From assembly GCF_905175375.1 (NCBI RefSeq), contig NZ_CAJIMS010000001.1, forward strand, positions 806,001-870,000: a stretch of DNA of 64,000 nt, read 5' to 3'. The stretch is from Chryseobacterium aquaeductus (GTDB taxonomy: Bacteria; Bacteroidota; Bacteroidia; Flavobacteriales; Weeksellaceae). The first letter of the stretch is position 1. Each line of letters begins with the position of its first letter. Below are positions 3,297 through 44,534 of the stretch, piece by piece. The position numbers and the translations under genes are program-made. Under the pieces are notes generated by a model. The model did no database searches. It worked only from the letters and a program-made list of their open reading frames with translations, and was not told the DNA's origin.

Positions 3297-4481
3297 TTAA
3301 TAAATAGTAATTATAAGCGGATTAGCGATAATCAAAGTCTGTCTTTGCAATAAATGTTCCCAATCTTTCTGAGTTTGAATCTGTCCGCTTTTCTGCCATG
3401 CAAATCCTGCATAATACGTTAGTTTTTTTTGTGGATTTGTAACAACCAACAAATTACTTTGATCCGGAGTTTCAGATTTGAAGGCTAAAGATTTTTGAAC
3501 AATTTTGGGATCAATCACAATACCTTCGCCCACAAATGCGTCATCTATTTTTTCCCAATGCAGGTAATATCCGCTTTTATCATTGAGTTTGCTTTCACCT
3601 TCGTTTTTGTGAAGGGTAATTCCCACTGTGTAATTCGGGACTGGTTTTTCAGATTCAAAAGTTGATTCAAACATAGAAAAATTTGAACCTAAGTCAAGAG
3701 AAATTCTTTTGGTTTCTTTCACTCCAAATTCACTCCACGGAGCATAAGTCAGTTCAAAAACAGTTCTCAAAGGTCCTTCAGTAATCGTTTTTGAGGTTAC
3801 AAAATTTTTTGAAACCTGCAGTTTTTCGTTTTCCCAAATTCCGATTCCTCCGGTTCCGCGACTGGCGCCTACATGATAAGGATCGTACCCTTCACCTCTA
3901 GTATCTTTGTGATAATAAAGTGGATCTGTGAGATAACCTTTGTACCATTCATTAATTACTGATTTTTCAGTTCTTTTCAGCCAGATATCTACACCGCTAG
4001 AAAGTGTGCTGCTTTTTACCTTGGCCAAAGCTTCAGCCTGCCCTTTGGGACCATAAACTCGGAAGGCAATTTTATCATTTTCCCAAGTGTAATCATCTGC
4101 CCTCTCAGGTACTAATCTTGAATAGGTAGTTAACTTACTTTCAGGAATGGGAGTTTTAGGATCTGAAAAAATGGTATACAAATTTGTTTTATTTGAATCT
4201 AAATTTGCCTGAAAAAGTAATTCGTCATTTTTACCATCGCCATTATCATCAACCCATTGAATAGGCTGATATTCATTTTGAGCATCTTTTATTCTTAAAT
4301 CTGATTCTTTATTTTTACTTAAAAAATTTCTCAATTGGTTGACAGAGATCGAAACAATTTCGCTTCGTGAGAAATCCTGTGTATTTTTCACCTTAATTGA
4401 AGTTTGCGAAGATAAACTTGTTCCAATAGCGCAATCGATTGCATAAATGACTCCAAATAAGAATTTTTTACTGAATGACAT
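3297..4481 (-). CDS. DUF4861-family secreted protein
   Basis: A 394-residue protein from the start at 4481, chosen over the earlier ATG at 4508 because it puts a basic-then-hydrophobic leader at the N-terminus. The sequence matches my recollection of DUF4861, a family often found in pectin-utilization loci of Bacteroidota, with a beta-rich fold and no established activity. Features include DDNGDGKNDEL near residue 75 and a GEGYDPYHVGAS segment in the middle. It lies 9 bases upstream of the pectate lyase in the same direction, which suggests a pectin role by context only. Confidence 0.75.
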   Translation of the reverse strand: MSFSKKFLFGVIYAIDCAIGTSLSSQTSIKVKNTQDFSRSEIVSISVNQLRNFLSKNKESDLRIKDAQNEYQPIQWVDDNGDGKNDELLFQANLDSNKTNLYTIFSDPKTPIPESKLTTYSRLVPERADDYTWENDKIAFRVYGPKGQAEALAKVKSSTLSSGVDIWLKRTEKSVINEWYKGYLTDPLYYHKDTRGEGYDPYHVGASRGTGGIGIWENEKLQVSKNFVTSKTITEGPLRTVFELTYAPWSEFGVKETKRISLDLGSNFSMFESTFESEKPVPNYTVGITLHKNEGESKLNDKSGYYLHWEKIDDAFVGEGIVIDPKIVQKSLAFKSETPDQSNLLVVTNPQKKLTYYAGFAWQKSGQIQTQKDWEHLLQRQTLIIANPLIITIY

Positions 4482-5873: not shown

Positions 5874-7079
5874 TTGAAAAACATTGCATTTTATATAGCT
5901 TCACGCTACCTTTTATCAAAAAAGGGAAGTACAGCCGTCACATTCATTACGTGGCTGGCGGTAGGTGCTATGACGGTAGCCGTTGCTGCAATGTTTGTTA
6001 TTATTTCTGTTTTTTCAGGTTTAGAAGTTTTTAACCAAAATCTTATCTCAAATCTTCACGCCGATTTAACTATTAAAAGTACGTCTGGCAAAAACATAGA
6101 AGATGTAGATAAAATTAAAACCATCCTAAAAAAGAATACCGAAATTGAAAATTTCTCTAGAATTATCGAGGAAAAAGTATATCTCAATTATAACGGAAAA
6201 GGTGACATCGGCTATTTACGCGGAGTTGATTCTTCGTACATCAAAGTAAATCCTATCGATAAAACCATATTTTTTGGTAAATATCCCAGCTTCGAATATT
6301 CTAATGAGGTCATTATGGAGCATTCTCTTGAGATGCGTTTATCAATACCTGTAGATACTTTAAATAATTTCGCAACCGTTTTCATGCCAAAATCAGGTGT
6401 AGGAATTATAAACAAAGAAGAAGATATTTACAACAAAAAGAACATTCTGGTAACAGGAATTTTCCCCGGAAATGATCAATTGAACAATTATATTATTGCT
6501 CCGATTGAATTATCTGAAGAACTCTTGAATCTTCCAAAAAATTCGGCATATCAGATTGTTATTAAACTAAAAAATCCTGAAAAAATTGATCAGGTAAAAA
6601 AAGATTTAACTTCTTCTATCGGTAAAGGTATTGAGATCAAAACAAAGCAGGAAGAAAACGCAGCTTTCTGGAAGATGATAAATACAGAAAAACTTTTTAT
6701 TTATTTAATATTTGCTCTGGTTATTTTTATTACAACTTTCAATCTGGCGGGAGCAATTATCATTCTACAACTAGATAAGAAACAGCAGGCAAAATCGTTA
6801 GTTTCTTTAGGATTTCCTTTAAGTCATTTACGAAAAACATATTTTTACACAGGTGTCTTAATTGTTGTATTGGGGGTGATTTCGGGCCTATTTCTGGGTA
6901 CGGCACTATGTTTATTTCAAATAAAAACCGAATTTTTCAAAGCAATAGAAACCCTTCCTTTCCCTGTAAGAATTGTTGCTGAAAATTATTTAACAGTCGC
7001 CGCAACTGCATCATTATTTGGCATCTCAATCTCATGGTTTTTCTCTAAAATAAGTAAAGATTATATTACTAAAAATTAA
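5874..7079 (+). CDS. FtsX-like ABC transporter permease, LolC/LolE type
   Basis: A 401-residue permease of the FtsX/MacB class, likely part of a LolCDE-like complex that releases lipoproteins from the inner membrane. It starts with TTG four bases after rbfA; this start gives the typical N-terminus ASRYLLSKK. The layout is one N-terminal membrane helix (about 22-45), a periplasmic domain of about 210 residues, and three C-terminal helices (about 275-395). No ATPase gene is adjacent, as is usual in flavobacteria where one LolD serves from another locus. The rbfA-permease pairing appears familiar in this group. Confidence 0.85.
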   Translation: MKNIAFYIASRYLLSKKGSTAVTFITWLAVGAMTVAVAAMFVIISVFSGLEVFNQNLISNLHADLTIKSTSGKNIEDVDKIKTILKKNTEIENFSRIIEEKVYLNYNGKGDIGYLRGVDSSYIKVNPIDKTIFFGKYPSFEYSNEVIMEHSLEMRLSIPVDTLNNFATVFMPKSGVGIINKEEDIYNKKNILVTGIFPGNDQLNNYIIAPIELSEELLNLPKNSAYQIVIKLKNPEKIDQVKKDLTSSIGKGIEIKTKQEENAAFWKMINTEKLFIYLIFALVIFITTFNLAGAIIILQLDKKQQAKSLVSLGFPLSHLRKTYFYTGVLIVVLGVISGLFLGTALCLFQIKTEFFKAIETLPFPVRIVAENYLTVAATASLFGISISWFFSKISKDYITKN

Positions 7080-31144: not shown

Positions 31145-31306
31145 GCGACTTTCCTTAGTCTATAGCGACCTGAAAAATACTTTTCTACTGAAATGTATAC
31201 CTCTTTTCTTCCAAAAACTTCATCTGTATGATCTGGAAAATAAGCAATTATCGTTGAAAGTTCTGTTCATTGTAATGAATATCATCTTTCCTATAGTAAA
31301 TATCAA

Positions 31307-31579
31307 CTATCTGCTTCGGAAATATAACTGTACGATGCAGAATGCGGTCTGTACATCTCGGAATACCATCTGTACACTTCGGAATGTCATCTGTACGCTT
31401 CAGAATATCATCTGTACGCCTCGGAAAATCATCTGTACACTTCGGAATGCCATCTGTCTGTCTCGGAAAACCATCTGTACGCTTCGGAATACCATCTGTC
31501 TGCCTCGGAAAACCATCTGTACGCTTCGGAATGCCATCTGTCTGCCTCGGAAAACCATCTGTACGCTTCGGAAAGTCAT
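31307..31579. repeat. 21-bp minisatellite, about 13 units
   Basis: Thirteen units of exactly 21 bases run from 31307 to 31579, each close to CTGTACGCTTCGGAAT plus five bases ending CAT. The last six alternate between CTGTACGC- and CTGTCTGC- types, giving a 42-base super-repeat. The first units are the most diverged, and isolated matches such as the one at 31224 suggest older, decayed copies back to about 31150. Frames through it give seven-residue repeats on both strands, but no start, leader or domain supports a protein. It sits between the nuo terminator and a convergent gene. Confidence 0.92.
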
Positions 31580-31605
31580 CTTGACGGATTTGTAAGATCT
31601 ATATC

Positions 31606-32460: not shown

Positions 32461-32491
32461 TTTTGAAGTACGAAAAATATTTTTATCTTCG
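32461..32491 (+). promoter_or_regulatory. Promoter upstream of the structured element
   Basis: TTTTG at 32461-32465 is followed after 18 bases by TATCTTCG at 32484-32491, one mismatch from TAnnTTTG. Spacing fits the Bacteroidota primary sigma factor. Transcription would begin near 32498, about 20 bases before the structured element. Confidence 0.6.
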
Positions 32492-32519
32492 CAACAGATT
32501 TTAACGAAAAAAATTAAAA

Positions 32520-32657
32520 GCGTAAGCTATCAAATTGGTTAGAGAAAACCGCGAACTTTCTTGAAAGACCAAATTTCGATAGGCTTACGCCCATGCTCCT
32601 AAATGGGCGCGGGCGTAGTCTTTCTGGTCTTTGGGTTCTTCGCGGTACCTCTCTAAC
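32520..32657 (+). ncRNA. Candidate structured RNA or hairpin element of unknown type
   Basis: A 138-base G+C-richer segment in an AT-rich gap with nested pairing. Stem B has three 8-bp blocks: 32538-32545 with 32650-32657, 32548-32555 with 32639-32646, and 32564-32571 with 32625-32632. Stem A pairs 32520-32531 with 32578-32590 (12 bp, one bulge), which interleaves with B. Stem C pairs TACGCCC 32586-32592 with GGGCGTA 32611-32617 and competes with A. A promoter lies just upstream. I match it to no known RNA family; a repeat-type DNA palindrome is the main alternative. Confidence 0.5.
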
Positions 32658-32660
32658 GGA

Positions 32661-32965
32661 TCGACTTCTGCTCTGCGCCTTTCTTATTTTCGATAATCAA
32701 TAAAAAAATTATATCAAATTTTAAATTAAATATAACACGACAGCTTCTGTCGCATGATGCATTGATATTTGCATCAAAGAGCGTTTGAAATTAAAAAAAA
32801 TAACAAATGACAGGATACGAAAATTTAATTTTCAAAACATTTTTTCCCAATCCTAAAGGGCGGAAGAAATGCTTTAGCAAAAATTCATTGACAATTAATG
32901 TTTTCCTTACTTCAGGAATTAAATATATTTTTATATTAGCGAAAAATTAATAACTATAAAAACGA
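32661..32965 (+). other. AT-rich leader of the RHS operon with small hairpins
   Basis: No gene was found here. It holds two adjacent small hairpins, CGACAG/CTGTCG at 32738-32752 and TGATGCA/TGCATCA at 32755-32776, and a weaker CTAAAG/CTTTAG pair near 32854-32877. A weak -7-like TATATTAG lies at 32933-32940. It may be the rest of a long 5' leader running from the promoter at 32461. Confidence 0.4.
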
Positions 32966-34630
32966 ATGATGAGAAAACTCTCCATGAGTGCATCTTTACT
33001 ATGCACCATTGCGGTATTACACGCACAAGATGTGGTTTGGCAGAAAGACATTAAGTCCTCCACGCAGGATTTTCTTTCGCAGGTTACTACGACAATTGAT
33101 CAGCAATATCTTATAACGGGTAGCAGTATTCAGGTAGCAGGGAAATCTGCAACCTCAAATCTGGGATCTGCAACCTCGAAACAAAATAACGGTTACGATT
33201 TTCATTTGGTGAAGCTTAATCAGCAGGGTGAGGAAGTCTGGGAAAAATATTTCTCGGGACAAAATCATGATTTTCTTTCGGCAACGGTGGCGACTCAGGA
33301 AGGTGGTTTTTTGTTAGCAGGGACTTCATATTCCAACGCCGGTTTAGATAAAAAAGACAATTCAAAAGGCGGCAGTGACATCTGGTTGATAAGAATTAAC
33401 GAGTTTGGTGATGAGATGTGGCAAAAAACTTTGGGATCAAGCTCTGACGAAGAAGCAAAAGCGGTGATTCAGACGACAGATTTCGGATTTTTTGTGGCAG
33501 GAAACGTCACCCTTCGACAAGCTCAGGGAACGCAGGGAACAGCGAAAGGTTTTGGTTCTAAAGATGTGATCATTTCAAAACTCGATAAAAACGGAAAAGA
33601 GTTATCCCAAATTATTTTAGGCGGACGTGGTCTAGACGAAGTGGAAAAGATGATCCCAACGCTTGACGGTGGTGCTTTGCTTGGAATTTATTCGCGAAGC
33701 GGAATTGTTGGGAATGAAAAATTAAAAGAGAATAGTGAAAAATCGTCAGGTTATTCAAAAAAGTCTGAAAACTTTGGTGAAGGTGATTTTTGGGTTGTCA
33801 AACTAAATAAAGAAGGAAAAGTAGAATGGGAAAAAAACTTCGGAGGGAAAGGTGATGACCATTTGAGAACTTTGGCGATGACTTCTACAGGATACGTTGT
33901 TGGCGGAGAATCGAGATCGGAAAGATCCGGCAATAAAACGGTGGGGATTGAAGAGGGAACGGATGTTTGGCTCATCTCCTTGAACGATAGAGGTGAAGAA
34001 CTTTGGCAAAAATCTTACAACTTTAAGAATAGAGATATCTTAATGGGGATGAACGTGATAAGCGGAAAACCATCAACCGACAACCGACAACCATCAACAA
34101 AAGGCATTTTACTCGGAGGCTATACGCAGGCGGAAGGCCGAATAGAAGCAGATGATGAAACTTTTTGGATGTTATATTTGGATCAAAACGGCAATGAGCA
34201 GTGGAGAAAGCACGTGAAAGGAGAATCCCGAAAGAAGGAAGAACGTTTGTCTGACATTAAACTCAACCGTGACGGCTCTATTATTCTGGCAGGCACGAGC
34301 GCAGAAGAACTCGGAAAGGAAAACTGGAAGATCGTGAAACTGGGTGATAAGCAGCTGGATCAGTTGATTGAAAAGCAGGATATTAAGATTTATCCGAATC
34401 CTGTTTCTGATTACTGCTATGTGGAAATCGGGTTTCCTTCGACAGGCTCAGGACAGGCTTTTGAAGCGGAGATTACGATTTATGATATGGGCGGAAGACA
34501 GCTTCAAAGCCTGAAAACTAAGAATAAAGTAACCAAGATCAATACGCAGAATTTGATTCAGGGAGCGTATCTGGTGGTGGTGAAAACCGACACGAACAAA
34601 ACAGCTAACGCGAAAATTATTAAAAAATAA
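32966..34630 (+). CDS. Secreted beta-propeller-like protein with T9SS sorting domain
   Basis: A 554-residue secreted protein. A signal peptide (1-20, LHAQ end) is followed by about six repeats of the form GDxWLxxLNxxGEExWxKxxGG, typical of bacterial beta-propeller/delta-60-like surface proteins. A C-terminal type IX sorting domain starts at KIYPNPVSDY. It precedes two RHS-type genes with a 7-base gap, so it is probably the first gene of that operon. Three short stretches (near residues 183, 370 and 492) look like dispersed repeat DNA absorbed in frame. Function unknown; a cell-surface accessory to the RHS proteins is an inference. Confidence 0.75.
   Translation: MMRKLSMSASLLCTIAVLHAQDVVWQKDIKSSTQDFLSQVTTTIDQQYLITGSSIQVAGKSATSNLGSATSKQNNGYDFHLVKLNQQGEEVWEKYFSGQNHDFLSATVATQEGGFLLAGTSYSNAGLDKKDNSKGGSDIWLIRINEFGDEMWQKTLGSSSDEEAKAVIQTTDFGFFVAGNVTLRQAQGTQGTAKGFGSKDVIISKLDKNGKELSQIILGGRGLDEVEKMIPTLDGGALLGIYSRSGIVGNEKLKENSEKSSGYSKKSENFGEGDFWVVKLNKEGKVEWEKNFGGKGDDHLRTLAMTSTGYVVGGESRSERSGNKTVGIEEGTDVWLISLNDRGEELWQKSYNFKNRDILMGMNVISGKPSTDNRQPSTKGILLGGYTQAEGRIEADDETFWMLYLDQNGNEQWRKHVKGESRKKEERLSDIKLNRDGSIILAGTSAEELGKENWKIVKLGDKQLDQLIEKQDIKIYPNPVSDYCYVEIGFPSTGSGQAFEAEITIYDMGGRQLQSLKTKNKVTKINTQNLIQGAYLVVVKTDTNKTANAKIIKK
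33511..33528. repeat. REP-like motif inside a coding sequence
   Basis: CCTTCGACAAGCTCAGGG is a widespread bacterial REP-like word; here it is read in frame as LRQAQG in an exposed loop between two propeller repeats. Confidence 0.6.
34070..34098. repeat. Low-complexity CATCAACCGACAAC tract inside a coding sequence
   Basis: Tandem CATCAACCGACAAC and CGACAACCATCAAC words, of the kind usually seen in spacers, are read as PSTDNRQPSTKG. Confidence 0.5.
34436..34457. repeat. Second REP-like motif inside the same coding sequence
   Basis: CCTTCGACAGGCTCAGGA followed by CAGG is one base different from the motif at 33511 but read in another frame (STGSGQ), within the T9SS domain. Confidence 0.6.
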
Positions 34631-34637
34631 AAACACG

Positions 34638-37502
34638 ATGAAATACCTAATCTTTTTTTTAACGATATTGTATGTGAAAATATCGGCACAAAACACTACG
34701 GTTGATGTTTTCAAACCGGTTCCTACAGTTTCTTACTTGTCTACCTATATCGATACACCGGTTGATATTTCTACCGGGGTTCCCAAAGTAGATCTACCGG
34801 GATTCAGCCTTCCCACACAAAACAAAAATATTAACATCAATGTCAACCTATCCTATCATTCTAAAAATGCAGTAAGGTTCCAACAGTCTTCGGATGTTGG
34901 CTTAGGTTGGAGTCTGATGAATGCTAATAATGTGATTTCTAAAACAATAATTGGCGGTCCTGATGAATCAGCTGCCAACAACCCTCTTATGAATATGGAT
35001 GTTTTTCAATTCAATGATGTGTTTTACTACAATGCATTCGGGATGTCGGGTAAGTTTGTTTTCAGGAAAACGGATACTACCAATGCCATTACGGTTCATA
35101 ATTTGGGCACCTCAAAAGAAAAAATAGAATTTACTAACTCTACGACTAAATACTTTGATATTTTGAAATTTAAAATTACCGATGAGTTTGGGAATCAGTA
35201 TTTTTTTGATAAAACAGGCACGGCCAGCTACAATAAAGGAGCCTATTATCTCAGTAAAGTATTAGATGCAAAAAATCAGGAAATCATTACTGTTGAATAT
35301 GCCGAGTATCACTATACAGATGAGCAATTACCCTTTGTAGATTATAAGCCAAAAAGAATTATTTCTAAAGGGTATGGTGAAATTAATCTGGAATATGATT
35401 ATTTCCCACAGAACAGATACAAATCTAACTCTACCCATATGTCTGACTGCTATCGCGTAAAAAAAGCTGAGCTAAAAGATACTGAAAACAGATTGGTGCA
35501 GTACATCGATTTTACTTACAATGAAATACTTTATTACAAATATTCAGTAATGAATACGGTAACATACGATACAACTGTTCTGGATAAGATATCCAGAAAA
35601 ACCAGTCAGGGGAATGAAATAGAAACCTACTCATTTACCTACAACAGCACGGGTACAGAGCAAAATTATGGTCCGTCGGCTAACTTTGGATTTGATGTTT
35701 GTTCTTCAGATCCTGAGCCTGTAAGAGAATGGACGGATAATCCCAAATACTCCACCATCGGAACCCTTTCTACAATGATATTGCCTACAAAAGGGTATGT
35801 AAAGTTTAATTTTGAGTCTAATCAATATTACTTTAACAGAACTTCAGTCTTTCAAAACCCGTTTACAGGATCTACTAATACTTCCTATTTTCATGATAAA
35901 GAAACACAATACTACAAACTCATTACTTCCTCTGATTTTGACACTAAAATCAACAGTACATTTACTTTCAATGTGACACCCGGCAGCGCAAACAACCCTG
36001 ATCACAGAAATCTTGTCTTTTGCTTTCAGGTCATCGGCTATGATCCCAATCCACTGCTTGATCCTGACGCAATACCTGTTATAGCTCTTTACTATGACAA
36101 TCAATATATTCCGTATGAAGCAGACGCATACGGCAGAATGTATGTTCCGGTAGGACTGCCTGGACTGCATACTTTGACCGTCGGCGGAAATACAACCGGT
36201 GTCGGAAATTTTTCCGTATATGAACTTACTGATATTGATGTATCGAATCATAATTATAAAAGTAAATACGGTGCTAGAATTAAGAGTATAGAATATTTTG
36301 ACTCAGAAGCGGCAGCATTGCCTTCAAAGACTAAGAATTATATTTATAAAAGATTTTCTGATAATGAAACGTCCAGCGGTACACTTTCACCCCATTTAAG
36401 TATTTTGCAAAATTCTTATTTAACTACCATGTATGGAGATTATGAATTTAATAAAAATATCGTTTACAAAAACGTAAAAGAGGTCAATGCAGATGGCGGC
36501 TACACCAAATATACGTTTATGGGACTTGATGACTGGTATGCAGCAGATCCTTCAAATGCATTCAGCTATTTAGAAGATATGAATAATAGTGGTTTACTCA
36601 CCAACAAAGAAATGTATAATTCTACACATCAGAAAGTTGCTTCCGAAAACCATGAATATACTTTCGAAAACCTTGATGTTAATCCGTTTACTGTGGCGAA
36701 TTCTATCGGATATTCAAGTCTCTATCCCGTTCATGTAAAAAAACATAAAATAATCAATACCCTGTTTTTTCCACAAAACAGATCAGTAACTACCTCGAGC
36801 GAAACACTGGTGAATAAAAATGACTTTAATGTAGAATATACGAAGGAATCAAATGATCAGGGTGATGTTACCGAGACCTATTATGATTACCCCTACAGCA
36901 AACAGATCACTAAGCTTCTGAATAAAAACATGTACAAAAATCTGATTGAAACAAGAACTCTTTTTAATGGGGAGGTGGTTTCTAAAACAGAAAGCAAATA
37001 TGACGAACCTTCTCACCTGTTTCCTACATCGGTTCTGTCGCAAAATCTTCTTACAGGATCTATGGCTACTCAGATGACTTACGATCACTATGACGCAAAA
37101 GGAAATTTACTGCAGTACACCACAAAAGATGGTGTTTCTACAGCCATTATCTGGGGCTACAACGGTACTCTGCCGATTGCAAAAATCACAGGAGCCACCT
37201 ATGCTCAGGTCAGCAGTTTGTCAGCGGCTATTGTTGCTGCTTCAAATGCAGATGCTTTGGCAGTTATCAATAATGATGAAACTGCATTTTTAAATATTCT
37301 GGATAATTTCAGAAATCAACCGGGTTTATCTGCTTTTCAGATTGCAACCTATACCTATGACCCTTTAACAGGGGTAAGAAGTCTCACCCCGCCATCAGGA
37401 ATCAGGGAGATTTATATCTATGATTATGCGGGCAGACTTCAGAAAATCGTAGATGAACAAGGCAAAATACTAAAGGAAAACACGTATAACTACAAACCAT
37501 AA
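34638..37502 (+). CDS. YD-repeat/RHS-like secreted partner protein
   Basis: A 954-residue secreted protein with a signal peptide (1-16). The start of the mature part, [15 protein letters not shown] and [10 protein letters not shown] with GLGWSL, is typical of large Bacteroidota RHS/SpvB-like surface proteins. The C-terminal 100 residues hold [14 protein letters not shown] and [19 protein letters not shown], which are YD-type repeats. It lacks the RHS core and any variable toxin tip, so it is likely a fixed companion of the next gene. Gaps to both neighbours are seven bases, with nearly the same spacer sequence (AAACACG, AAACACA). Confidence 0.8.
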
Positions 37503-37509
37503 AAACACA

Positions 37510-40500
37510 ATGAAAAAACTTATTATCCCCATCAGTATGCTGTTTGTAGCGGGTCTTTACCATGCACAGGCAACCAATACAGAAAACTATGTACAGACCA
37601 GAGTGTACCTTGAGCCTGTAACTGCATCCAGCTCTTCTGCAAAACAGATACAGACCGTACAGTATTTTGACGGTTTGGGAAGACCTAAGCAGGTAGTGAA
37701 TGTAAAAGCATCACCCACAGGAAAAGATGTGGTGAACTATATTGAATACGACCAATTCGGAAGACAGGTAAAAGATTACCTTCCCGTTCCGCAATCCGGA
37801 ACGATGAACGGTGCTATTGTTCTCAATCCGTTGAGTAATGCGACACAGCCATCTATTTACGGAACCGAAAAGATCTATTCGGAAAAGGTACCGGAAAACT
37901 CACCTCTAGACAGAATACAGCAACAAATTCAGGTAGGTACGGCTTGGGCAAATAAACCTGTACAGTTCGGATATGATACCAATATCACCGGCGAGGTAAA
38001 AAAATATACCACAACAACAGTCTGGGAAAACGGAGCCACAAAATCAGGAGTAAGTGACGGCGGAAGTTATCCTCAGGGACAACTTTATAAAAACACAGTT
38101 ACCGATGAAGACGGCAATTCGACAATAGAATTTAAAAACACCAGAGGGCAGACCGTTTTAGTAAGAAAAGCAGTCAGTGCCTCCGAAAATGCTGATACTT
38201 ATTATGTTTATAACAAATACAATCAACTGGCATTTGTAGTACCGCCTTTGGCTGTGGTGGGAACTGTGGATCAACCTGCATTGGATAATCTCTGCTATCA
38301 GTACCGCTATGACGGAGACAATAGATTGGTTGAAAAGAAACTCCCCGGAAAAGGTTGGGAATATATGGTATACGATAAAGCTGACCGTCTCATCATGACT
38401 CAGGATGCTAATATGCGCGCAAACAGTAAATGGTTAATTACAAAGTATGACCAATTTGGAAGAGTCATCTACACAGGGATTTTAGCTGGTGGAGACAGAA
38501 CGAGTATGCAAAATCAGGCAGGAAATTTGGTGATTACTGAAGCTAGACATCCTTCAGGTTTTACGAAAAACGGGATGCAGGTTTATTACAGTAACGGTTA
38601 TTTTGTTGATATAGAAACCGTACTATCAGTTAACTATTACGACAGCTACCCTTCTTACAGCTTCAATCCGTCTTTTCCTTCCACCATTTACGGGAAAACG
38701 ATCTTGACGGATAATGCAGCGACATTGGGGAAAAGTACGAAAAGCCTTCCTGTAATGACATTGTTGAAAAACATTGAAGACGATAACTGGACGAAAAGCT
38801 ACTCGTACTACGATACCAAAGGAAGACCCATTGGAGGTTACGCCATCAATCATTTGGGAGGCTACACTAAAACCGAATCTGAACTTGATTTTGCAGGTGC
38901 GGTTTTGCAGACCAAAACCTATCATAAAAGATTAGATACCGACGTTGAAAAAGTAATTACCGAAAATTTTACGTACGATCATCAAAACAGATTGCTGACC
39001 CATAAGCATAAAATTGATAACAGGACAGAAGAAATTTTGTCTCAGAATGTATATAATGAGCTCTCGCAACTGAAAACCAAAAGAGTTGGCGGTACAGTTT
39101 TAGGAATGGGACTTCAGAAGGTAGACTACACGTACAACATCCGCGGTTGGATGACACAGATCAATGATCCTGCGAATTTGGGAATTGATTTGTTCGGGTA
39201 TAAAATTAAATATAATCAGGTAGACGGACTTGAAAATCCCAATATCGATTTTATGGATCTCAAGGTAAAGCCCAAATTCAACGGGAATATTGCAGAAGTA
39301 GACTGGCGAACAGCAACAGAAGAGAACGAGCCTTTGAAAAGATACGGATATGTTTATGATAATTTGAATCGTCTGTCTGCAGGATTTTACCAGAAAGAAG
39401 GTTCTGCAAACGCCAAAGAATATTTCGAAAGAATGGAATATGACCGCAACGGAAATATCACAAGATTACAAAGATCTGCAGGTTTGCTTTCGGGAAGTAC
39501 CACGGCATTATCAATCGATAATCTGAAATATGATTATTCAGGTAACAGGCTGACTAAAGTGACTGAAGAACAGATTGGTAACAGCAACGGTTATCCTTAT
39601 TTTGTCACCCATAATACAATCACTTACGATGATAATGGAAACATGATTTCTCACAAAGATAAAGGGATCAATTCAATTTTATATAATTATTTGAATCTAC
39701 CTTCAACTGTTATAAGTGGAAGTGGCAGAAGATCAAGTTCCTCTTCATATATCTACAGAGCAGACGGTACTAAACTCAAAAAAATATTGGCTAATTCATT
39801 TGCAATGTCAGGTACAGAGATTGATTACCTTGATGGTTTTCAGTATGATAACAAAGTAGATTTATGCATAGGATGTCCCAGTTCTTCAGCAATATTAAAA
39901 TTTGTTCCTACCTCTGAAGGCTATTTTGATTTTGAAAAAAATCTGTACATTTACAATTATACCGATCATTTGGGAAATGTACGTTTGAGCTATGCAGATC
40001 CTAATGGTGATGGCGGGATTTTGCCACGCGATATGAATTCAAAATACTGCGAAGACATGGGAGATGGTAATATGGCGTGTTATGATGTCTGGATGCCGGG
40101 AGAAGTTGTAGAAGTCAATAATTATTACCCATTTGGATTGATGCACAATTATACTGGAACAACGATGAATAGTTATCAATATAAGTACAACGGGAAGGAG
40201 TTGCAGGAGACTGGAATGTATGATTATGGTGCGAGATTCTATATGCCGGATATTGGAAGATGGGGTGTTGTAGATCCGTTGGCAGAGAAATCAAGAAGAT
40301 GGTCGCCATATAATTATGCTCTTAATAATCCAATCTATTTTACTGATCCTGATGGAATGGATGTTGTCGAAACAGCTTCAGGAACGACTTATACAGGAGA
40401 TGATGCTCAATCAGCTTTTAGATCATTAAGAAGTCAATTAGAAGGTGGTCCTAGACCAAAAATTATTTCTAGAAAAGAATGGGGAGCAAAATCTCCCATT

Positions 40501-41076
40501 TTAGGGGGTGGGCGCTCATATGAAAAACTTAGTCCTACTATGAAAATGTTTGGTGCATTTGATGTTTCGGTCGGAGGAGTTCCTATTGACCTAGCTAAAT
40601 ATTATAATACGATAACGGTACATCATTCGGGTAATAAAGATGATTATATGAGTATACAACAGCTACAACAAAAAGAGCAAGACGATGGTTATGCAGATAT
40701 TCCATATCATTTTGCGATAGACAGCAAAGGTAATATATATGAAGGTAGACCTATAGGTGTAAAAGGTTCGCACGTAAAGGGTGGAAACACAGGAAATATT
40801 GGGATAGTTTTGATGTCCGATCTTGATACAGAAAATAAAGGATTAGGCTTTTTTCAAAGTATGTTTGAAACAAGTGATGGTGGTGCAAGTACAGCAATGC
40901 GTCAATCATTAACAGATCTTGTTTCCCACTTGAATGGTAAGTATGGCATTCAATATTTAGGAGGTCATAAAGAGAAAGCAACAGATCCAAGAAATTGTCC
41001 CGGAAATGGAGGGATGAAAATCGTTGAATACTTAAGAAATAAATTACATATGTTATCTCCAAAAAATGAAAACTAA
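37510..41076 (+). CDS. RHS polymorphic toxin with PGRP/amidase tip
   Basis: A 1188-residue protein: signal peptide (1-21), DUF6443-type N-terminal domain with [12 protein letters not shown], many YD repeats, then the RHS-associated core at about residues 893-951 ([19 protein letters not shown], ending DPDGM). After the core comes a peptidoglycan-recognition/N-acetylmuramoyl-L-alanine amidase domain from about residue 983: VHHSG (His1038/1039), GGHKE (His1153) and NCPGN (Cys1163) give a full zinc-ligand set. The tip would cleave the peptide stem from peptidoglycan. The next gene overlaps by 11 bases and is the candidate immunity gene. How it is exported is not shown. Confidence 0.9.
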
Positions 41077-41640: not shown

Positions 41641-41789
41641 ATGCGGCTACATTTTTATTAAAGAAGTCTTTAAACTTTTTTGTGGTAAGCATTTTATCTA
41701 TGATTTTAAAGACGGTGCTTTTGTCTTCTTCGTCGAGCTGTTGAATGAGTTCCATTTGTTCGAGAGTCGATTTATCTTCAATTATAATC
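41636..41789 (-). pseudogene. C-terminal remnant of an XRE-type regulator
   Basis: About 50 residues on the minus strand (IEDKSTLEQMELIQQLDEED to FFNKNVAAL and stop) read like the C-terminal end of a flavobacterial helix-turn-helix regulator. The N-terminal DNA-binding part is absent: at 41790 the sequence switches to RHS repeat DNA homologous to 38993 onward. Calling it XRE rests on resemblance to tails I recall and is moderate. Confidence 0.5.
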
Positions 41790-42090
41790 TTGCTGACGCA
41801 TAAGCATAAAATCGACAACAATCCGGAAGAAATTCTGGCTCAGAATACCTACAATGAATTGTCGCAGTTACAAAATAAAAAAGTAGGCGGAGCAATTTTA
41901 GGAAGCGGTCTACAAAGCATTGATTATGCTTACAACATCAGAGGCTGGATGACGCATATCAACGATCCCAATGATCTTAACGGAAAACTTTTTGGGTATG
42001 AAATCAAATATACCAATCCTGAAAACACCTCTTTGTCTACACCCAGGTTCAACGGAAATATTGCAGAAGTTGATTGGGTAAAAATCATAC
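41790..42090 (+). pseudogene. Truncated, frameshifted RHS repeat fragment
   Basis: Starts abruptly inside an RHS repeat (THKHKIDN) matching the intact RHS gene from residue about 496. It reads to GNIAEVDW, then loses frame in the run GTAAAAATC near 42078, where one missing A explains the shift into the frame of the next entry. It has no start codon or signal peptide of its own, so it is unlikely to be a working protein. Confidence 0.8.
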
Positions 42091-43153
42091 TGAACAGGAC
42101 TCTTCATTTAGAAGATACAGTTACCAATATGATCAGCTCAACAGGCTTTCGCAAGCGGTATTTTCTGAACCCAACACCTCACTTCCTATTAACAATAAAT
42201 ATGACGAGCAGCTAAACTATGATCTCAACGGCAATATTCTGAACTTATCCCGAAATGCTCCTTCCTACTATGGAACAGGCGAAAAAATAGACGATTTGAG
42301 CTACGAATATGAAGGAAACAGTTTGATGAGCGTAAATGATGGAACAGGGAATCCTTCCGGCTATGAAGGTGGAGGGAACTCAATTTCTTATGACAGCAAT
42401 GGAAATATGATCAATATGCAGGATAAACTCATTGACCAAATTGACTACAACCACCTAAACCTTCCCAACAAATTAAAAATTGACAGCTATAACAAAAGTT
42501 TGAATTATCTCTACCGTGCAGATGGAACAAAGCTTAAAAAAAGCTTCATTGCAATGGGAGATAACGGAGCGATGTATTCTTCGTCCACCGAATATTTGGA
42601 CGGTTTTCACTATGCATCTTCTACAGGTGACGAATTGTGGTGGGCTTGGTATGAAGAATCTGGTGGAGCGTATGAGCCGGAAGCATTTATCAATATGATT
42701 CATGGTTCGTCTTTTGATAATGTTTTAAAATTTGTTCCAACCGCTGAAGGTTTTTTTGATTTCGAAAATAATCAGTACATTTATCAGTACAAAGATCATT
42801 TGGGTAACGTGAGATTAAGCTATAAAAAAGAAGGAACAGGATTGGCAGTAACTGACAGCAACGATTACTATCCTTTCGGAATGAATTTCCTAAGAAATGA
42901 AGAGGAAGAAGCCAATTTTGGCACAGGTAGTTATAAAAATTATAAATTCAATGGTAAGGAATTGCAGGAGACTGGCATGTATGACTATGGCGCGAGATTT
43001 TATATGCCGGATATTGGGAGATGGGGAGTTGTAGATCATTTGGCGGAAAAATATCGAAGATGGTCTCCTTATACTTATGTAATAAATAACCCAATTCGAT
43101 TTATTGATCCCGATGGAATGCAAGTTAAGTTATGGATCCTATTTATGGTTTAG
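42074..43153 (+). pseudogene. RHS core cassette fragment
   Basis: A 359-residue frame continuing the previous fragment: YD repeats such as YQYDQLNRLSQAVF, then the RHS core [19 protein letters not shown] with DPDGM at about residue 351. The core DNA is about 85% like that of the intact RHS gene by eye. It carries VDHLAEKYRR where the intact core has [10 protein letters not shown]. Six codons after DPDGM it runs into a stop, and the toxin-tip frame starts 22 bases before that stop in another frame. It may be expressed from the TTG at 42074, but no promoter or leader is visible. Confidence 0.75.
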
Positions 43154-43773
43154 CTAGTGCTTTTAGTAATCGACTTAAGTTGATAGGTAATGATGGGAAA
43201 AATGCAGGAAAAGTTTACATAGCAACAGGAAGTGTAAGAAGAGACGTTGAGAGGGCAACAAAAAAAGGTGAAAATTATACAGGAGACTTGACGGATAGTG
43301 GAAAGGTAGCACTTATTCCTACTGGAAGTAGATTGAATAGTGTTCGCGAATCTATTTCCGATACTAAAAAGTCAGGAAGGGAAAACGGAGGATATGCATT
43401 TAAAGGTGATAGCAAACCTACTAGGAGTAATGAAGGAGGAGCCGCAAAACAATATGAAAATGATAAAGGACAAATTGTTACAGAAGCTGGAATGAAAGTG
43501 TTTCAAGGGGTAATTCCTAAAGATGCATCAAATTTAGAAATGTATTGGCATAATCATCCTGATGTTAAAATTTCTACAACTAATCTAGGACATTCAAATC
43601 CTTCAGGTGCTGATTACGATTTCCAAGGAATTTTAGAAGATCGAGGCTATAATGAAAATACATTTGTGGTCGGAATTGGTACTAGTAATGTTACATATTA
43701 CAATGGAACAGGTAGTGTTGTAACTGTGGTAATGTATCAGAAGTGTTGGTTTCCTTTGTTAATAGATGTTTAA
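43132..43773 (+). CDS. JAB/JAMM-like RHS tip, orphan
   Basis: A 213-residue frame that follows the RHS core with a frame change. It has its own ATG 22 bases before the core frame stops. The segment E136-M-Y-W-H-N-H-P ends in H140 and H142, followed by S158 and D161, which fits the JAMM zinc motif (HxHP, then SxxD) of JAB-type metalloproteases. The middle is Lys/Gly/Ser rich. The last residues CWFPLLIDV probably come from the inserted IS element. No immunity gene follows. It may be a silent tip donor. Confidence 0.6.
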   Translation: MDPIYGLASAFSNRLKLIGNDGKNAGKVYIATGSVRRDVERATKKGENYTGDLTDSGKVALIPTGSRLNSVRESISDTKKSGRENGGYAFKGDSKPTRSNEGGAAKQYENDKGQIVTEAGMKVFQGVIPKDASNLEMYWHNHPDVKISTTNLGHSNPSGADYDFQGILEDRGYNENTFVVGIGTSNVTYYNGTGSVVTVVMYQKCWFPLLIDV

Positions 43774-43856: not shown

Positions 43857-44534
43857 ATGCGTTCTACTTTTTATACGTGTTCCAAATGTGTTGGTAAAAA
43901 CAGCAGGTTAATAAAGTTTGGGAAAACCAAAAATGGAAAACAAAGATTTCAATGTATATTATGTAGAAAAACCAGTGTTTTAAATTATTCTTATCAGGCT
44001 TACAGAAGAAACACCAATACGAAAATCATACGTTTAACGAAAGAAGGAATGGGAATAAGAGGTATCTCAAGATTTTTAAGAATATCAACTACAACCCTTC
44101 TCAAAAGAATAATTAACATTTCTGATCGCATACAACCACCTTCAATTAATTACAAAAAAATATATGAAGTAGACGAATTAAGAACATACATCGGAAATAA
44201 AAAACAAATAGTGTGGCTTGTTTATGCTTTAGAAAGAGACAGCAAAAATGTCTTATGTTTTAATTTAGGAAAAAGATCCAATGACACTTTAAATGTGGTC
44301 ATCAAGTCTTTACTACATTCAAATCCTGAAAAAATTTATACCGATAAACTCAGAAATTATCAATACTTAATTCCAAAAGGAATCCATCATACCAAAAGAT
44401 TTGGAACCAATTCTATTGAGAGAAAAAATCTGAGTTTGAGAACACATTTAAAAAGACTGAATAGAAAGACAATTTGTTTTAGCAAAAGTGTTTTAATGCT
44501 TAGTTCTGTTTTGAAAATATATTTCTGGTCATGA
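43857..44534 (+). CDS. IS1-family transposase
   Basis: A 225-residue transposase encoded in one frame, rather than the InsA/InsB frameshift arrangement of E. coli IS1. An N-terminal zinc finger uses Cys8, Cys11, Cys33 and Cys36, followed by a helix-turn-helix (GMGIRGISRFLRIS). The DDE residues appear as D106 (VDEL), D163 (YTDK) and E188 (SIERKN), with the IS1 hallmark LNRKTICFSKS near the end. The gene looks complete. Confidence 0.9.
   Translation: MRSTFYTCSKCVGKNSRLIKFGKTKNGKQRFQCILCRKTSVLNYSYQAYRRNTNTKIIRLTKEGMGIRGISRFLRISTTTLLKRIINISDRIQPPSINYKKIYEVDELRTYIGNKKQIVWLVYALERDSKNVLCFNLGKRSNDTLNVVIKSLLHSNPEKIYTDKLRNYQYLIPKGIHHTKRFGTNSIERKNLSLRTHLKRLNRKTICFSKSVLMLSSVLKIYFWS

Follow-up and report, generated by a model that had tools for sequence, protein, structure and literature searches.

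To our knowledge, few regulatory RNA classes have been described in the Bacteroidota. The closest general counterparts of the RNA considered here are attenuators and riboswitch-type 5' leaders, which have a promoter, a structured leader with competing pairings, a U-tract behind a GC-rich stem, and a gene that runs in the same direction. A pseudoknot as the terminator stem is unusual. Flavo-1 (RF01705) is an RNA motif of flavobacteria, as is the present element. In addition, the antitermination RNAs of the HK022 put type (PMC9378689) are promoter-proximal folded RNAs in mobile-element contexts, a description that also suits the element.

This element lies on the + strand of the window (the whole stretch of 64,000 nucleotides that was analysed) and represents a conserved structured-RNA family that is Bacteroidota-wide and lacks a match in Rfam 15. 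It shares the listed features of attenuators and riboswitch-type leaders, but it differs from them in that the stem adjoining its U-tract is a long-range pseudoknot, and in that no known ligand or common metabolic gene set goes with it, the first downstream genes falling into 39 clusters. The reading that we favor, with a probability a little under one half (roughly 0.48), is that the RNA would be a cis-acting 5' leader in which the PK2 stem and the U-tract form a conditional terminator that competes with an apical hairpin, P4. The parts of the element and its surroundings are as follows.

32461-32465, + strand: -33-like element TTTTG, read from the sequence, 18 bases 5' of the -7 box
32484-32491, + strand: -7 box TATCTTCG, TAnnTTTG-like (sequence and cross-copy count)
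32496-32690, + strand: predicted transcript if ended at the U-tract (box-to-start distance and U-tract end)
32518-32681, + strand: conserved structured RNA core (covariance model R1, 164 positions)
32520-32531, + strand: PK1 5' strand GCGTAAGCTATC, which pairs with 32578-32590
32578-32590, + strand: PK1 3' strand, with a single bulged G (sequence and 37-homolog alignment)
32538-32545 and 32650-32657, + strand: P1 strands, 8 bp in the window copy, with 32539-32545 and 32650-32656 taken as the family's P1 (alignment and tree-null covariation)
32548-32555 and 32639-32646, + strand: P2 strands, 8 bp (alignment and tree-null covariation)
32564-32571 and 32625-32632, + strand: P3 strands, 8 bp in the window copy, with 32564-32570 and 32626-32632 taken as the family's P3 (alignment and tree-null covariation)
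32589-32596, + strand: 5' strand of the apical hairpin P4, with an A-C mismatch at 32593 in the window copy
32607-32614, + strand: P4 3' strand, common to PK2 (37-homolog alignment)
32606-32613, + strand: PK2 5' strand, mutually exclusive with P4 (alignment and tree-null covariation)
32672-32679, + strand: PK2 3' strand, in the tail (alignment and tree-null covariation)
32680-32689, + strand: U-tract TTTCTTATTT, adjoining the PK2 stem (T content over 153 copies)
32737-32752, no strand assigned: spacer palindrome ACGACAGCTTCTGTCG, a possible operator (motif count in long spacers)
32764-32771, + strand: second -7-like box GATATTTG, 5/6 matches (sequence and alignment)
32932-32939, + strand: third -7-like box TATATTAG, 5/6 matches, 5' of the first gene (sequence and alignment)
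32966-34630, + strand: first downstream gene, a T9SS sorting-domain protein of 554 aa (TIGR04183, 1.6e-11, above cut-off)
34638-37502, + strand: second gene, 954 aa (no NCBIfam match at E<=0.01)
37510-41076, + strand: third gene, an RHS core domain protein of 1188 aa (TIGR03696, 1.1e-17, above cut-off)

The sequence-only reading of this DNA had placed here a promoter, three stacked helices, a 12-bp stem with one bulged G that crosses them, and an inner hairpin, and each of these is present in the sequence where it was placed. The comparison of copies adds PK2, the pairing of 32606-32613 with 32672-32679, which is followed at once by the U-tract. That the segment is a structured RNA, as had also been proposed, is seen first in its stability: bases 32498-32670 fold with -63.8 kcal/mol, compared with a mean of -39.25 (sd 4.27) for shuffled versions (z -5.75), and none of 200 shuffles is equally stable. 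Across 37 aligned homologs P1, P2, P3, PK1 and PK2 are jointly 96.7% paired. For a structure that had been selected on this same alignment, double-sided pair changes number 19 compared with 12.3 (sd 1.5) in shuffles, with none of 500 shuffles as high, and the covariation score is 0.323, compared with a maximum of 0.077 when the structure is slid; by one measure, further pair types, 38 of the 500 shuffles matched the real alignment. A second null model replayed substitutions along a FastTree tree (100 simulations) for the 126 sequences remaining from 129 selected; some odd copies and the divergent group had been set aside. Against this tree null, 12 pairs are significant at E<0.05, all of them within these helices: P1 has five, P2 three, and P3 and PK2 two each. 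All but one of the 12 form standard pairs in 80% or more of the sequences. Compensating changes in the paired blocks had been suggested as a check on the RNA. In PK1 no pair is significant among the 126 sequences (best E 1.18) because this stem is nearly invariant, with 98.5% of its cells paired in the 37 homologs, and P4, which varies mainly through wobbles, has none among the 70 best pairs listed.

The helices also indicate which strand folds. Their cells contain 691 GU and 64 AC combinations (184 of the GU cells come from a single conserved three-pair step, and P2 alone is reversed, with 2 GU and 11 AC), and by this excess of GU the + strand is the folding strand. The compensatory changes and strand-specific GU pairs by which a structured RNA is recognized are therefore both found. 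An unconstrained consensus fold picked PK1 and a PK2-like stem rather than P1-P3, which is expected because the family is pseudoknotted. The length of the RNA modulo 3 is mixed (60/57/36 among 153 copies), and no forward frame is open across it in more than 16 of the 153, so that the RNA is not a conserved reading frame and a coding role is rejected. In one genome, two copies (L005 and L011) are nearly identical in the 5' half and upstream flank and differ in their 3' halves, and P1 and P2 are partly broken in L011; this pattern suggests gene conversion or recombination inside the RNA.

Crossing and competing stems, as had been proposed, are supported, and the comparison of copies shows a competition that involves the tail. 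Columns 99-105 form P4 when they pair with the 5' strand of the apical hairpin, and PK2 when they pair with the 3' tail. Despite these common columns, P4 has 97.6% and PK2 98.3% of its cells paired in the 37 homologs, so that both pairings are apparently kept; from the sequences, then, P4 and PK2 appear to be conserved, mutually exclusive alternatives. At the two central columns substitutions are compensated in the tail, within PK2, and mostly give wobbles in P4, where 7 of the 37 copies, the window copy among them, have a mismatch at one pair. In nested folding P1-P4 is better than PK1 plus PK2 in all eight copies evaluated, by 3.4 to 19.6 kcal/mol (-70.0 versus -56.2 kcal/mol in the window copy), within a nested model that cannot score the pseudoknotted form having P1-P3 and PK1/PK2 together. 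At the level of sequence, a terminator-like stem, a U-tract and an exclusive alternative are all present, as in an attenuator, with P4 not significant against the tree null.

Both ends of the RNA carry conserved signals. These were compared in 153 distinct copies (155 had been assembled from matches picked for retrieval, rather than from all matches). Of the 153, 144 have a TAnnTTTG-like box with at least 5/6 matches in the ~52 nt upstream, compared with 64.9 expected from shuffles, in keeping with the promoter originally assigned to the window copy; 125 of the 144 boxes are positioned 20-31 nt 5' of the RNA, and a perfect box is found in 68 copies. In F. psychrophilum the TAnnTTTG box spans -12 to -5 of start sites (PMC9723704), which would place the start in the window near 32496. 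At the other end, the 8 nt after the PK2 stem contain a mean of 5.81 T, versus 2.55 further downstream, and at least 6 of these 8 are T in 69% of copies, versus 3% of control stretches (the first two positions fall in the search model, and the T excess extends past it).

From the promoter box, the helices, the mutual exclusion of P4 and PK2, the U-tract and the co-directional gene, which are seen by comparing sequences, a course of transcription, termination, switching and response to a signal can be proposed as their simplest joint account. Transcription would start at the RNA's own TAnnTTTG-type promoter and give a compact RNA in which the long three-part helix P1-P3 carries a large apical loop. 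This loop would pair through PK1 with the 5' end and through PK2 with the 3' tail. Set against the U-tract, the stem of PK2 would be a conditional intrinsic terminator, and P4, by using PK2's strand, would be the read-through (antiterminator) state. Terminated transcripts would release a small RNA of ~195 nt; those that pass would express the gene downstream. On the evidence of the sequences, the RNA probably helps to decide the expression of the genes that follow it.

The arrangement of neighboring genes bears directly on the leader reading. When the nearest ORF of at least 70 aa is considered, the downstream neighbor is co-directional in 148 of the 153 copies, opposed in 3 and uncalled in 2, while the upstream ORF is co-directional in 64, opposed in 87 and absent in 2; at the level of sequence, the upstream promoter and co-directional downstream gene of an attenuator are thus both found. 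Among the exceptions, L017 and L023 are followed by short ORFs in the same direction (61 and 69 aa) and a third (L096) has a co-directional ORF soon after the RNA, which leaves L114 and L115 as the copies without one. BLASTP at E 1e-4 groups the 148 downstream proteins into 39 clusters, of which 19 have a single member. The total of 39 is approximate because distant relatives may be split and a short first gene was missed in a few loci. In the largest cluster (n=51) are the proteins that begin RHS-type operons, that of the window among them. The proposal that the RNA is the leader of the RHS operon is plausible, but too narrow for a family with 39 clusters of first genes. The next clusters are a lipoprotein-like family (n=14) and a family of nine whose L009 member has a transglutaminase-like domain. 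Twenty proteins were scanned against Pfam (17 first ORFs, including one fragment, plus 3 second ORFs), and the 3 that pass a cut-off belong to unlike families. No common function was found among the downstream genes, and the common metabolic theme of riboswitch-controlled genes is absent from these clusters and Pfam assignments. PADLOC, applied to 10 proteins, gave a single weak match (CARF_TM, E 0.0038) in a TM2-like protein.

In the divergent subfamily, the operon at L252 starts with SusC-, SusD- and S9-peptidase-like genes (Pfam), and L251, L253, L254 and L255 have a three-ORF layout like that of L252, as judged by size. Small divergent upstream proteins at this subfamily pass an HTH Pfam cut-off in 4 of 7 cases, and a fifth falls below it. 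At L251-L256 the RNA sits between the small divergent gene, often of the HTH type, and the SusC-like operon. The S9-type protein of L252 also has a resemblance, far below cut-off, to a lasso-peptide isopeptidase model. A tentative extension of the leader reading would make the family a portable control module of the Bacteroidota: a double-pseudoknot RNA, with a long-range pseudoknot as its terminator stem, that is placed before dozens of surface, secreted and mobile-island genes and answers to one common signal or polymerase factor.

The principal alternative, which we consider possible though rather unlikely, is that the element is an independent small RNA. It would have a promoter and a terminator of its own, be genetically linked to the next gene, and act in trans or have a separate role. 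The promoter box and U-tract that flank the RNA would suit it, as would L114, where a convergent ORF lies 73 nt downstream and none is seen in the direction of the RNA, but the 148 co-directional neighbors speak against it. Further evidence comes from the distance between RNA and gene, which is bimodal: 54 of the 148 spacings are below 80 nt (32 of these at 40-59 nt), none falls at 80-119 nt, and 94 lie beyond, 75 of them at 120-419 nt and 19 farther. The tight short-spacing class argues against an independent RNA, since a perfect -7 box occurs in 0 of 51 scanned short spacers (1.1 expected, which is chance level) and a 5/6 box in 18 compared with 15.2 expected; the genes of this class should rely on read-through. 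An extra hairpin between RNA and gene, the loop of which is complementary to the tail, also counts against independence. It is present in 24 of the 54 short spacers compared with 0.5 expected, by thresholds that were fixed after a first look, and it would be made only in transcripts that pass, because it lies beyond the U-tract. (The first test, with a complement score of at least 5, gave 59 of 153 compared with 22-34 in shuffles; the counts given here use stricter thresholds and treat the spacing classes separately.) At spacings of 120-999 nt (n=93) the hairpin is found in 4 copies at the strictest threshold and 13 at the loosest, compared with 0.8 and 4.2 expected.

Long spacers, to whose class the window copy belongs, have conserved promoter-like elements of their own, which favor an independent RNA. 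A perfect -7 box is present in 40 of 75, compared with 9.6 expected, and ACGACA-N3..6-TGTCG, with at most 2 mismatches, in 54 of 75, compared with 2.9 expected. The palindrome followed by a -7-like box is seen mostly at RHS-type operons, and the pair is likely an operator/promoter. With its own box and palindrome, a long spacer does not require read-through, and the independent-RNA reading is strongest for this class, window copy included. The apparent need for read-through in the short class and not in the long one is the main ground for only moderate confidence in one single mechanism.

By analogy with HK022 put, the RNA could instead act on the elongating polymerase as a processive antitermination or polarity-suppressing RNA, such that long or foreign operons would be transcribed to the end. 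This is unlikely. Its promoter-proximal position, its compact conserved fold and its many different downstream genes, among them long RHS or SusC/SusD operons, would fit such a role, but a U-tract right behind the fold suggests termination and not its suppression, and some downstream units look short. Compared with the put RNAs (PMC9378689), the element has a larger fold with two pseudoknots and then a U-tract, and its effect on polymerase is putative. Mobile-island neighbors also fit: in a hand-picked set of 10 neighbors of other copies, Pfam identified HsdM, a MobA-type relaxase, a primase-like protein, two tyrosine integrases, ArdA, a Cro/C1-type regulator, an MmeI-type protein and a sigma-70 region 4 protein. 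The tenth, the upstream protein in L102, matched no Pfam family, and its assignment by eye as a relaxase was dropped.

Were the RNA a translational leader, its fold and the extra hairpin would govern access of the ribosome to the start codon. The position of that hairpin shortly 5' of the ATG in the short-spacer class would accord with this, but it is mostly absent from the 93 copies spaced 120-999 nt, and we regard this reading as improbable. A DNA recombination site, or the mobile palindrome (REP/MITE) that had also been considered for the window, is rejected as very improbable: integrases and a relaxase adjoin some inspected copies, but model R1 finds just 1-7 copies per matching genus genome among the matches listed (at most 16 candidates scored per genome), GU cells far outnumber AC cells overall, and the conserved promoter box, U-tract and co-directional gene accompany the RNA. 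A type III toxin-antitoxin RNA, with the toxin gene next, is similarly improbable. The element has the order of promoter, pseudoknotted RNA, U-tract and gene, and resembles type III antitoxins as a pseudoknotted RNA 5' of a gene, but it has no repeat unit by eye, its downstream genes fall into 39 clusters, and none of the 20 downstream proteins scanned belongs to such a toxin family in Pfam.

The distribution of the RNA depends on the method of search. By BLAST there is one copy in its own genome; 10 of 39 sampled relatives match (own genome counted), all of the same genus, as do 74 of 173 genus genomes when up to 4 candidates are scored per genome. R1, a covariance model from 35 sequences that models P1-P4 only, finds the RNA in 135 of the 173 genus genomes at E<=1e-3. 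At E<=0.01 it matches 181 of the 296 genomes of the family, and these represent 20 of the 33 genera sampled. At E<=1e-5 it matches 74 of the 395 genomes searched in the order and 25 of the 395 searched across the phylum; the window's own family accounts for 7 of these 25. Of the lower-scoring matches, those inspected resemble divergent subfamilies, with an unchanged strand order and a 3' end rich in T. In a named genome collection, 52 stretches fit a degenerate pattern, mainly in Chryseobacterium and also in Faecalibacter, Flavobacterium, Epilithonimonas, Chishuiella, Empedobacter and Sphingobacterium. Rfam 15, including Flavo-1, gives no match at gathering score over the element in the window and 32 relative loci, in agreement with the earlier impression that it belongs to no known RNA family, and a relaxed Rfam search of 361 bases returned chance-level matches only (best E 1.2). 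In L119 a Flavo-1 motif at 4122-4177 is ~2 kb away from the element copy at 6155-6319. No description of the element was found among the titles and abstract openings listed by searches of an open-access library. The RNA is a widespread, covariation-supported class without a match in Rfam 15, and the genes that it accompanies include exported, RHS, SusC/SusD and mobile-island ones. By means of the covariance model it could be tested directly on transcript data that already exist.

A few observations concern the surroundings of individual copies. In the window, an ORF at 31275-31595, upstream of the RNA, contains a short motif in tandem repeat; 3' of the RHS protein, short ORFs at 41745-43773 resemble, by eye, fragments of another RHS gene, and beyond them lies a possible IS1-like gene (43857-44534, by eye). 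No phage or plasmid record was matched by the window copy in BLAST. A degenerate pattern of the RNA is present in two IMG/VR viral contigs (L261 and L262), and some copies may thus sit on prophages. At L168 (2301-4122), an insert carrying a transposase-like gene (IS110-like by eye) splits the apical region of a copy from another species, and both halves of this interrupted copy are still matched by R1.
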